Source: Fibrobacter sp. UWT2 (GTDB taxonomy: Bacteria > Fibrobacterota > Fibrobacteria > Fibrobacterales > Fibrobacteraceae). From it: 64,000 nt of DNA. Within the stretch, counting starts at the first letter, position 1. The number at the start of each line of letters is the position of its first letter. Where the stretch lies: NCBI RefSeq assembly GCF_900142545.1, contig NZ_FRBF01000009.1, positions 1-64,000 on the forward strand, given 5' to 3'. The notes below the pieces were generated by a model. The model had not been told where the DNA came from, searched no databases, and saw only the letters and a program-made list of their open reading frames with translations. Made by a program: the position numbers and the translations under genes. Below, piece by piece: positions 1 through 27,202 of this stretch.

Positions 1-45
1 GTCTAGGACCCTCTGCCATTCCTCTTCTGTGTGTATTTTTGTCAT
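1..45 (-). CDS. Partial ORF leaving the left edge; possible IS66-family TnpA
   Basis: Only the first 15 codons are inside the window and read MTKIHTEEEWQRVLD. The ATG (complement of 43-45) is preceded on the minus strand by AGAGG about 6 nt upstream, so initiation is plausible. An early E-W-Q-x-L/V motif is typical of the accessory protein TnpA of IS66-type elements (EWQxLV...SGLSQ). This is a family resemblance from a very short stretch and could be chance. If right, the window begins at the edge of an insertion sequence next to the accessory island. Confidence 0.3.
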   Translation of the reverse strand, partial: MTKIHTEEEWQRVLD

Positions 46-3665: not shown

Positions 3666-4007
3666 GATTCGCTGCCCGAAGGCAACAATCCAAAACCCAT
3701 TAGACAGTCACAGCCTAATAGTTGATTGATTACTCTTTTAATTTCAGTTTATGTCGCTATTTTTGCTTTACACCTCCTTTTTTGTTATCGGAACATACGT
3801 GCCAAGAAAGCTGCCTGTTTTTTTGAGCGCCTTCCCAATACAATATTTAGTCGTCAAAACTTAAAATCAGCATTTTCAGTCTCATTATTTTTGTTTAGCC
3901 CCTTCACCCTGTAAACTACACGGAAGAATTCAACCCATTTGTATATTTTACACTCTTTAGACCTTTGTTAGGTCCTTTTTGACACAAGTTTTTTTTATGA
4001 ATAAAAA
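3666..4007. other. Intergenic region with a plus-strand terminator-like hairpin
   Basis: No convincing gene. A 62-codon frame from a TTG at 3726 has no ribosome-binding site. At 3958-3980 AGACCT-TTGTT-AGGTC is followed by CTTTTT, an intrinsic-terminator-like hairpin on the plus strand, although no plus-strand gene is apparent upstream. Confidence 0.45.
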
Positions 4008-4181
4008 GGCGTGGTGTCGAATGCACTTACTCAATCGAGGCTCTGGCAAGCCCATAACGCAATAAGCACAAACGACCCACGCCCAAAGGGGTGCGGCAAG
4101 AGTCTGTCCATTGCGTTATTTTTTGAAATCTGCCAGAATTTCGATCAATTAAACAAGGACTCTGTCAAAAGTCTATGTCAA
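4008..4181 (-). ncRNA. Covarying pseudoknot-like element, copy A, downstream of res
   Basis: It shares long conserved blocks with copy B at 8890-9094: GTCGAATGCACTTACT, GAGGCTCTGG, AATAAGCACAAACGACCCAC and CTATGTCAA. Between the blocks the sequences differ but stay complementary. In this copy TCTGGCA (4042-4048) pairs TGCCAGA (4131-4137), ATAACGCAAT (4054-4063) pairs ATTGCGTTAT (4110-4119), and ATCGA (4034-4038) pairs TCGAT (4141-4145). GGCGTGG (4008-4014) pairs CCACGCC (4077-4083), which lies in the loop of the first helix, so the fold is a pseudoknot. Read on the minus strand the last stem arm is followed by TTTTT, like an intrinsic terminator. It could be a small RNA or a folded recombination site; I cannot name a family. 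Confidence 0.65.
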
Positions 4182-8821: not shown

Positions 8822-8889
8822 GTGAACCTCACGGCTAAGGGTGCACGCCCTTATTTAGTGCTGTTCGCGTCACAGCTTTAAATAAAAAA

Positions 8890-9094
8890 GCGTGGCGTCG
8901 AATGCACTTACTGAAGTGGAGGCTCTGGAAAACCTATCTATAAATAAGCACAAACGACCCACGCCCATTGCTGGACGTGAGCGCTCGCCTTATTCTCAAT
9001 AGATTTTGAAATTTTCCAGATTTCCACTTCGAGAATAAGAGCTAACTCTACGTTAAACTCGTGCCCTGCACCACGAGGTGCAGAGCTATGTCAA
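8890..9094 (-). ncRNA. Covarying pseudoknot-like element, copy B, upstream of mod
   Basis: Second copy of the element at 4008-4181, in the same orientation. Conserved blocks are kept while the helices change on both sides. GAAGTGGA (8913-8920) pairs TCCACTTC (9023-9030), TCTGGAAAA (8924-8932) pairs TTTTCCAGA (9012-9020), ATCTAT (8936-8941) pairs ATAGAT (8999-9004), and AATAAG (8943-8948) pairs CTTATT (8989-8994). GCGTGG (8890-8895) pairs CCACGC (8959-8964) in the loop. An extra hairpin CTGCACC-ACGA-GGTGCAG (9066-9083) is present only here. On the minus strand the element ends in a U-run about 65 nt before the mod start. Confidence 0.65.
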
Positions 9095-9148: not shown

Positions 9149-9197
9149 GACAATTTTAGGGGCTTTTTTTTCGTTGCCGCAATAAATAAGATATCCC

Positions 9198-9226
9198 TTG
9201 ACGCTGACAATCTATTTGTATATATT
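9198..9226 (+). promoter_or_regulatory. Strong sigma70-like promoter for the structured RNA at 9233
   Basis: TTGACG (9198-9203) and TATATT (9221-9226) with exactly 17 bp between them. The predicted start is about 9233, well before the next coding region at 9558. The first roughly 300 nt of the transcript are therefore untranslated. Confidence 0.65.
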
Positions 9227-9232
9227 GTAGCT

Positions 9233-9536
9233 GATATTCGATAATCCTCGTGACAGTCGACATAGACCTTCGGGTCCGTACGTGCATTCGCGGCGGGGCC
9301 CATCAACCTTCTTGATGGTTCTGTTGGATAGCTGGTAGGAACACGACCTACTCGAGTTCACTCGAAAGAGTGGCAAGTAACGCCGGGGAAAGCCCCCGCC
9401 AACAGAATCGCAAGATCATCCCATTCCGCGCAAGGCGTGGAAAATTTCAATACATAACAAGTAAGCAAGGGCATGTTGTGCGCTGTTTTTCGGCGTAATC
9501 GCAACGGCCAGCCAAATTGTCGCCCAATGGCGACGG
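9233..9536 (+). ncRNA. Unassigned highly structured RNA or long leader upstream of an AlbA_2 regulator
   Basis: The stretch is packed with stable elements: GACC-TTCG-GGTC (9266-9277), CCATCAA-CCTTC-TTGATGG (9299-9317), and a closing helix CTGTTGG (9320-9326) with CCAACAG (9399-9405) enclosing three hairpins (GTAGG...CCTAC, CACTC-GAAA-GAGTG, GGGG-AAAG-CCCC). UUCG and GNRA tetraloops are typical of folded RNAs. A last hairpin GTCGCC-CAAT-GGCGAC (9519-9534) followed by GGTTTT resembles a weak terminator or attenuator just before the next gene. I do not recognise the family. The start follows from the promoter at 9198-9226; the 3' end is a guess. Confidence 0.55.
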
Positions 9537-9557
9537 TTTTAATAGCGAGGCAATTCG

Positions 9558-10991
9558 ATGACTTTGGAAGAACTCAAAAAACTGATTTCTAAAGATGAAA
9601 CGAAGAATATTGAACTGAAAAAATCTACCGGCGAACTCCGGGAGGGCATGCATACGGCATGCGCCTTCCTGAATTCCGATGGCGGCGTTCTCGTTTTCGG
9701 TGTCACGCCTTCCTTGAGTATTGTTGGGCAAATCGTTTCTGAATCTACCCGTCGCGATATCGCGCAAGCGTTAGCGGGAATAGAACCTGCGGTCACCCCT
9801 GTTATTGAATATGTAGACATTCCCGGCAAGGACAACCATCAAGTAATCGTACTGAGGTTCAATCCGTGGGTCTATGGGAATGACCCGTACACATTTCATG
9901 GAAGACCATACTATAGACTGGAAAGTGTCACTAAAGCAATGCCTAGGGATATGTTTGATGCTAGAATTCGGATCAACATGCCGCACAAATATTCGTGGGA
10001 AATGAGGGTGGCTGAGGGGTATTCTATAAAAGACCTTGATGTCAGCACAATTCGTGGCGTAGTCCGTCTCGGAGTCGAAGAAAAACGAATTCCGGTGGGG
10101 TCACTCAATGAGTCAATTAAAGTAATATTGAAAAAATGGAACCTGTTGGATGGCGACAATTTGCGGAACGCCGCTGTGTTTCTTTTTTCTAAGAGATTTT
10201 CGTATGATTATGAAATTCGAATGGCTCGTTTTAGAGGAATGGACAAAAATTACTTTATCGACAACCAGCAGGCTCATGGCAATTTCTTTGAACTGCTTGA
10301 TGCGGGCATGTCGTTCTTTTTCAAGCATCTTTCTCTTAGCGGAGAAATCAAGGGGTTTAAAAGGGAAGAACACCTTGATGTTCCTGCAACGGCATTGCGC
10401 GAGGCACTGATTAACGCCCTTTGCCATAGGGATTATGACATTTACCAGTGCTCTATCGGCATTGCCATATATGACGACCGTATAGAAATTGAAAGCCCGG
10501 GCTTGTTACCCCGCGAATTAACTCCCAAAACTATTAAGCGGTCGCATAAGTCATATCCACGAAACGAGATTGCTGCGACGGTTCTCTATCAAATAACATA
10601 CTTAGAAAAATGGGGCTCGGGAATAAAGCGCATAATGGATGCTTGCAAAGCTGAAGGTTCTCCACAACCCTTTTGGAGTGAAGAGGGTGGCTATACCGTG
10701 GTGACGTTCCCGATGAACAAACTGAACGGTAGGATTGTCACCCCAAATGAACCTCAAAATGTCACCCAAAATGTCACTCAAAATGTCACTCAAAATGACA
10801 TTCCGAGAGCAGAAAAAGTGGAGCAGGTTGTTGTGGAAAATTCCATGATATCAAAGGATGATTTAGCTAAAAGGTTCAATGTTTCAAGTAAGACTATTTT
10901 GAGGGACCTCAAAAAGCTTGGCTATGCTTGGGAAGGTGCATCGAAAAATGGGCGTTGGGTAAAAAAGGAACCTACGTCCACAAACTTGTAA
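9558..10991 (+). CDS. AlbA_2 / HATPase_c_4 / wHTH putative regulator
   Basis: A 477-residue protein of the COG2865 type (AlbA_2 or Schlafen-like N-terminal domain). Residues ~10-130 form the AlbA_2 part (NIELKKS, then LNSDGGVLVFGV). Residues ~270-385 form an ATPase-like HATPase_c_4 domain (ALREALINALCHRDY, IEIESPGLLP, EKWGSGIKRIMDAC). Residues ~430-470 form a winged helix (ISKDDLAKRFNVSSKTILRDLKKLGY). Between them is a linker of repeated Q-N-V-T words encoded by a 12-bp tandem repeat. GAGG lies 9 nt before the ATG. Such proteins are usually annotated as transcriptional regulators and are frequent in defence islands. Its position behind a long structured transcript suggests control of its own expression, which is inference. 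Confidence 0.8.
   Translation: MTLEELKKLISKDETKNIELKKSTGELREGMHTACAFLNSDGGVLVFGVTPSLSIVGQIVSESTRRDIAQALAGIEPAVTPVIEYVDIPGKDNHQVIVLRFNPWVYGNDPYTFHGRPYYRLESVTKAMPRDMFDARIRINMPHKYSWEMRVAEGYSIKDLDVSTIRGVVRLGVEEKRIPVGSLNESIKVILKKWNLLDGDNLRNAAVFLFSKRFSYDYEIRMARFRGMDKNYFIDNQQAHGNFFELLDAGMSFFFKHLSLSGEIKGFKREEHLDVPATALREALINALCHRDYDIYQCSIGIAIYDDRIEIESPGLLPRELTPKTIKRSHKSYPRNEIAATVLYQITYLEKWGSGIKRIMDACKAEGSPQPFWSEEGGYTVVTFPMNKLNGRIVTPNEPQNVTQNVTQNVTQNDIPRAEKVEQVVVENSMISKDDLAKRFNVSSKTILRDLKKLGYAWEGASKNGRWVKKEPTSTNL
10755..10802 (+). repeat. 12-bp tandem repeat encoding QNVT
   Basis: Four consecutive 12-nt units (CAAAATGTCACC, CAAAATGTCACT twice, then a degenerate CAAAATGACATT) lie inside the AlbA_2 gene. 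The unit is a multiple of three, so copy-number change would lengthen the linker between the ATPase-like and winged-helix domains without a frameshift. Confidence 0.8.
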
Positions 10992-26991: not shown

Positions 26992-27014
26992 GACGAAGAA
27001 AGTTTCCTGTGCCC

Positions 27015-27178
27015 TGAAAAGCCCATGTGGGAGCCCTACTGGGAGGCCTGCAAGGAGAGAATCCCGTGAAAACCGGGAGCGGTCGCGCCGCTGTAAGGGA
27101 GGACGAAACCGGCATAAACCAATGTCTATATAGATGTGAAGGAGCCGGAAGTAGATGGATCCCCGAGCCAGAAGAACT
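27015..27178 (+). promoter_or_regulatory. Cobalamin riboswitch
   Basis: The diagnostic core is present: GAATCCCGTGAAAACCGGGA (starting about 27058), then GCGGTCGCGCCGCTGTAAG (about 27078-27096) and a distal AGCCAGAAGAACTG (about 27167-27180) corresponding to the B12-box helix. The GCCGG/CCGGC words around 27108 and 27143 form a peripheral helix. It lies about 25 nt before the start of a TonB-dependent receptor. The ribosome-binding GAGGAACG follows directly, which suggests control of translation by adenosylcobalamin-type ligands, known for this family. Confidence 0.9.
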
Positions 27179-27202
27179 GTGGGAAACGCTTTTTGAGGAA
27201 CG

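Follow-up and report, generated by a model that had tools for sequence, protein, structure and literature searches.

The locus at 9198–9557 of the window (the 64,000-nt stretch of DNA analyzed here, from the gut bacterium Fibrobacter sp. UWT2) raises the question of what a promoter-driven, highly structured RNA ahead of an AlbA_2 gene is for. A preliminary description had offered three readings: an ornate non-coding RNA, a riboregulator of the AlbA_2 gene, or an RNA partner in a defence module. To our knowledge, how costly or self-harmful defence genes are silenced before infection is largely unexplained in bacteria, and the controllers of defence genes that we know to have been described are mostly DNA-binding proteins. 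The RNA, here termed R1, is best read as a new structured RNA family and a shared regulatory leader of candidate phage-defence genes in Fibrobacteraceae; the first of the three readings was right. Feature coordinates are collected in Table 1.

Table 1. Features of the R1 locus and its neighbourhood in the window.
Feature	Position	Strand	Description or basis
E2, second window copy	4000–4085	-	
E2	8875–8985	-	~95-nt hairpin ending in a U-run, ahead of a type III mod gene (8821–7025)
R1 leader promoter	9198–9226	+	-35 TTGACG 9198–9203, 17 nt, -10 TATATT 9221–9226
R1 RNA domain, ~190 nt	9232–9423	+	covariance model match, 219.2 bits; covariation; no Rfam match
P1 domain	9246–9298	+	helix 9246–9251/9293–9298 enclosing P1a and P1b
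P1a hairpin	9265–9268/9273–9276	+	
P1b hairpin	9281–9284/9289–9292	+	
P2 hairpin	9300–9318	+	CCATCAA/TTGATGG; helix 4, 90.4% paired
Pseudoknot	9310–9415	+	P2 loop strand TCTTG 9310–9314 with tail CAAGA 9411–9415
P3 domain	9321–9405	+	closing helix CTGTTGG/CCAACAG (9321–9327/9399–9405) around three hairpins
P3a hairpin	9334–9339/9347–9352	+	
P3b hairpin	9358–9361/9370–9373	+	
P3c hairpin	9384–9388/9394–9398	+	
Two accessory hairpins, 3′ of core	9424–9509	+	similarity in related copies
Accessory hairpin 1	9424–9442	+	TTCCGCGC/GCGTGGAA
Accessory hairpin 2	9470–9509	+	U5 loop
Gene-proximal hairpin, short T-run	9513–9541	+	~17 nt 5′ of the start codon; AlbA_2-subfamily specific
Downstream gene	9558–10991	+	477 aa, SLFN_AlbA_2 + HATPase_c_4 + HTH protein (domain matches)

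The promoter described earlier (TTGACG-17-TATATT) was found in place, and the transcript is expected to start near 9233. Taken alone, this pattern is no commoner than chance predicts (1 found, 1.0 expected); its position is conserved ahead of other R1 copies, TTGACN-15..19-TAYATT preceding 73 of 114 strong copies, and a -10-like word lying just 5′ of R1 in 101 of the 114. The promoters themselves vary, some carrying palindromes across the -35 element and one class lying ~45 nt further upstream. The stretch was confirmed as non-coding, no credible ORF being present before 9558 in the predicted transcript from ~9233, and as strongly structured, none of 100 shuffles of the 9230–9557 segment reaching its folding energy of -123.8 kcal/mol (z -4.2). 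It had been put at ~300 nt; the structure stands, but the conserved part covers only ~190 nt (about 9232–9423).

Covariation was analyzed across homologous copies and showed a conserved structure of nine helices with 46 pairs, in which 98.2% of 1839 cells were standard pairs and 19 of the 46 pairs had two-sided changes, with no shuffle as good and slid controls of the alignment only 38–57% paired. Helices 1–3 of the P1 domain were 98.8–99.6% paired, with two-sided change in 5 pairs, the pseudoknot (helix 5) was paired in 100% of cells, with one pair changing on both sides from U-A to A-U, and the P3 domain (helices 6–9) contained 11 pairs with two-sided changes; its closing helix and three-hairpin junction, noted in the preliminary description, are thus real and conserved. 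Counting by strand gave 210 G-U against 12 A-C cells within pairs, which indicates that selection acts on the plus-sense RNA and not on a DNA hairpin. Long unpaired stretches, for example GGATAGCTGG, GTAACGCC and ACAGTCGRCATAG, were nearly invariant. P2 is CATCAAC/GTTGATG in most copies; in the window subtype it overlaps the pseudoknot strand, so that the two may, judging from the sequence, be alternative pairings. A leader peptide frame from P2 was considered and set aside, since it closes after ~7 codons in the window type and is open only in another subtype. Variants without P3a/P3b were found (L033, L075), and in L073, L074 and L078 an extra ~70-nt structured module lies 3′ of the P3 5′ strand (GGGTGAGCATCAAAGCCC...GGACCGAACGGTC).

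A match to a known Rfam family and an unconserved structure in homologues had both been set beforehand as grounds for rejection, and neither was found. Rfam searched at the gathering level gave no match to the R1 region, nor did searches with E up to 10 using the window copy and two divergent copies; the best scores for three diverse copies were at chance level (E 0.64 and weaker), and no Rfam covariance model for ROOL, GOLLD, OLE, HEARO, introns or ribozymes matched R1. The sole gathering-level match in the window was a cobalamin riboswitch (26995–27198). ROOL, GOLLD, OLE and HEARO/omega RNA are, like R1, complex conserved bacterial RNAs, with functions that are not known or are RNA-guided, and some are rumen-associated; R1, by contrast, is smaller, stands ahead of host defence-like genes, lacks an Rfam match even at E 10 and, unlike HEARO/omega RNA, was seen with no IscB/TnpB-type partner.

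A DNA search found R1 copies elsewhere in the same genome and in many congeners. Using a covariance model built from 41 copies, R1 was detected in 62 of 80 Fibrobacter genomes (~150 copies in total, usually 1–6 per genome; 18 genomes without a detected copy), including 36 of the 40 best assemblies of the genus, and in 67 of 167 genomes of the phylum, all belonging to three genera of one family, Fibrobacteraceae. An exact core pattern, run against 84,980 species with a single genome standing for each, matched 81 stretches, every one of which had Fibrobacter, Fibrobacteraceae or Fibrobacterales in its title. Neither phage records nor viral contigs yielded a copy by DNA similarity or by two patterns, giving no sign that sequenced phages carry R1.

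For the genes behind R1, 153 copies were located on fetched flanks, and 136 were followed, no more than 700 nt downstream, by the start of an ORF of 70 aa or longer on the same strand, the 5′ position of a predicted leader, as in riboswitches; five copies lacking such an ORF sit at contig ends. Pfam analysis of these 136 first genes gave 41 DUF1016_N, 30 SLFN_AlbA_2 and 29 ORF6N matches, with small numbers of HsdR, Fic, Bro-N, RhuM, HTH_3 and Gp49; most first genes outside the three main families were restriction-modification (RM), Fic, Bro-N or toxin-antitoxin genes. A riboregulator of the AlbA_2 gene was the best of the three earlier options but too narrow, since R1 also fronts DUF1016, ORF6N, Bro-N, Fic, HsdR and toxin-antitoxin genes. 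PADLOC classed DUF1016 as PDC-S02, ORF6N as PDC-S05 and Bro-N as PDC-S13, PDC denoting a phage defence candidate, and AlbA_2 proteins matched a PDC model only weakly; by this database classification, DUF1016, ORF6N and Bro-N are candidate defence families. PDC-S02 and PDC-S05 are reported to be abundant among rumen genomes (PMC13356809). DUF1016, AlbA_2 and ORF6N genes were estimated to make up ~0.4% of genes (~450 three-family matches in 41 genomes, out of some 120,000 genes), yet they account for about three quarters of the genes that follow R1. Many DUF1016, ORF6N and AlbA_2 genes lack R1, which is thus not obligatory for them.

Tandem RNA-gene-RNA-gene arrays in a single orientation, mixing DUF1016, ORF6N, AlbA_2 and Bro-N genes, were observed at L050, L060, L116, L144, L167 and L170. 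Because of such units an integron attC-like site was considered, and it was rejected, the GTTRRRY/RYYYAAC order being inverted and G-U pairs tolerated. Membership of R1 in a mobile or recombining unit, in which a recombinase or transposase acting in trans would recognize its RNA or structured end and spread cassettes of RNA and gene, is improbable. Copies are scattered, in places in tandem, and their cargo is exchanged, but the tolerance of G-U pairs points to selection on a one-strand RNA, promoters and upstream flanks differ and leave no constant outer boundary, no shared recombinase gene was found among the first genes downstream, and homologous recombination between repeated leaders would account for the exchange.

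On a tree of 105 R1 RNAs, the cargo family changed 24 times (minimum 2, shuffled mean 41), the remaining clustering being expected from recent common descent, and identical R1 RNAs were found ahead of a DUF1016 (L060) and an ORF6N (L062) gene. These cargo changes, together with the differing promoters, indicate that R1 is a module independent of both promoter and cargo. They bear directly on the third earlier reading, in which R1, from the same promoter, would neutralize or arm the encoded protein as its cognate partner, in the manner of a type III toxin-antitoxin RNA, an AbiF-like non-coding RNA or a guide. The layout does resemble that of type III loci (ToxIN, CptIN) and of the AbiF system, where a promoter and a pseudoknotted RNA precede a defence protein gene, often a nuclease, and SLFN/AlbA_2 and DUF1016/PDDEXK proteins are nuclease-like. 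Since identical RNAs front unrelated proteins, such a role is nevertheless unlikely, and it is the rival most clearly contradicted: the RNA tree does not follow cargo, near-identical proteins exist without R1 under another leader, and no conserved terminator separates RNA and gene. Type III antitoxin RNAs are tandem repeats specific for their own toxin, whereas R1 is one ~190-nt non-repeated domain (no direct repeats in 9190–9560), common to unrelated families and replaceable by another leader, and no ToxN/CptN-type RNase was present among the 25 commonest of the 30 Pfam families in the 136 first genes.

The other leader, R2, consists of a promoter preceded by a GTAAAATTTTCTTAC-like palindrome. 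Pieces of this leader were found upstream of 13 of 60 R1-less AlbA_2, ORF6N and DUF1016 genes, across all three families; in 8 of the 13 a strong intrinsic terminator (-17 to -21 kcal/mol) follows directly 3′ of the promoter. R2 loci (L272, L287, L298, L310, L315, L325, L326, L330) lie 200–400 nt 5′ of the gene, and the palindrome has the form GTAA..TTAC. Two AlbA_2 proteins of 97% identity were found under R1 (L064) and R2 (L287), and DUF1016 proteins of 92% identity under R1 (L116) and R2 (L325, L326); in these swap pairs, DNA similarity starts only ~10–35 nt before the start codon, placing the leader junction just upstream of the ribosome-binding site (RBS). With a strong terminator directly after the promoter in most R2 leaders, the function exchanged between R1 and R2 is plausibly control after initiation. 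A further promoter segment common to the three families, a TGTCATAATATGACA-like palindrome followed by GAATGTATATTTG, was observed at L277–L280 (AlbA_2), L321 (DUF1016) and L292/L297/L303 (ORF6N).

Between the core and the gene, similarity among closely related R1 copies extends to ~9506, across the two accessory hairpins, which are retained ahead of AlbA_2 as well as DUF1016 genes, and the spacer between R1 and the start codon ranges from about 25 to 330 nt. The hairpin with a T-run previously noted before the AlbA_2 gene is present (~9515–9538, then TTTTAAT), but its T-run is weak, and it is specific to the subfamily and lies outside the conserved RNA. Intrinsic-terminator-like hairpins, this weak one included, occurred in 19 of 104 R1 leaders at no fixed place, and no conserved expression platform was found among the leaders so checked. 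In some families, palindromes close to the gene extend over the RBS region, and those such as GGTCRCAAATTGYGACC beside the RBS may serve as operators or form RBS hairpins. Palindromes GTCGCAAATTGCGAC / GTCACAAATTGTGAC, at times in several copies, were seen just 5′ of the start codon (L053, L060, L064, L116 and others), in the spacer next to DUF1016, ORF6N and AlbA_2 genes, and may have either of these roles.

Downstream of the core, no terminator or other signal for a 3′ end is conserved, which also weighs against R1 being cleaved from the leader as a shared, trans-acting small RNA that many loci produce, the gene merely sharing its promoter. High sequence conservation that includes unpaired stretches, and several near-identical copies per genome, would suit such an RNA; its constant codirectional placement upstream of a few gene families would not be needed for a trans role, and no copy was detected in 18 of the 80 genomes, so that this explanation is unlikely.

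R1 is probably a cis-acting 5′ leader that can be exchanged for others, resembles a riboswitch in its anatomy and controls candidate defence genes; the cis assignment rests on its invariant position, transcript-sense structure, narrow target class and exchange with an attenuator-type leader. With riboswitches and other structured cis leaders (such as the cobalamin riboswitch of the window) it shares the 5′ leader position, a conserved pseudoknotted, aptamer-like fold with covariation, invariant unpaired nucleotides and the placing of one RNA before several genes of related purpose. Riboswitches, however, control metabolic genes, whereas the genes behind R1 are candidate phage-defence genes and R1 matches no Rfam family. 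Structured cis leaders are a known kind, and dedication of one to an exchangeable set of defence genes was not described in the literature searched. RptR, a DNA-binding repressor of promoters, controls defence islands (PMC12255303); there too one dedicated control element is conserved before defence operons, but R1 is RNA, forms part of the transcript itself and holds its place under different promoters.

That R1 regulates, and by what signal, we infer as follows. R1 would form the first ~190 nt of the mRNAs of single-gene defence candidates, namely DUF1016, ORF6N, AlbA_2, Bro-N and some toxin-antitoxin, Fic and HsdR genes, would fold as two domains linked by the loop-tail pseudoknot, and would make expression of the downstream gene conditional. 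Most likely, a common signal (for instance a metabolite, a protein, or stress on translation during infection) would stabilize or break the fold, and the change would alter read-through or translation of the mRNA in the style of a riboswitch or attenuator.

The preliminary description had also noted a word common to 9278–9290 and the elements at 4008 and 8890 and had allowed for chance, which is the probable explanation. Kinship of R1 with these elements, termed E2, through GTGCATTCG was rejected, because the structural contexts differ: in R1 the word spans hairpin P1b, and in E2 it crosses the 3′ side of one long hairpin. E2 (fold z -5.5) is still relevant because it itself leads RM genes: it is multicopy, was found in 75 of 80 Fibrobacter genomes, adjoins type III mod or HsdM methyltransferase genes in 6 of 10 sampled cases, and is a third leader type. 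R1 and E2 are divergent neighbours in the window, and in several genomes E2 was observed divergent to an R1 copy, ~300 nt apart. Downstream of the second E2 copy lies an EndoU-type nuclease gene (PF14436, 2970–3665, minus strand), which may encode a toxin adjacent to the type III RM operon.

A structured RNA reused across unrelated candidate defence families would amount to an RNA-level immune regulon. It is possible, if doubtful, that R1 is an immunity-dedicated riboswitch class or protein-sensing leader, a single sensor of an infection signal serving many unrelated defence genes alongside R2 and E2; if this is true, R1, R2 and E2 would constitute a lineage-wide RNA-level layer of control over the defence arsenal. 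The three leaders could also be used as bait, any gene behind them being a defence candidate in Fibrobacter.
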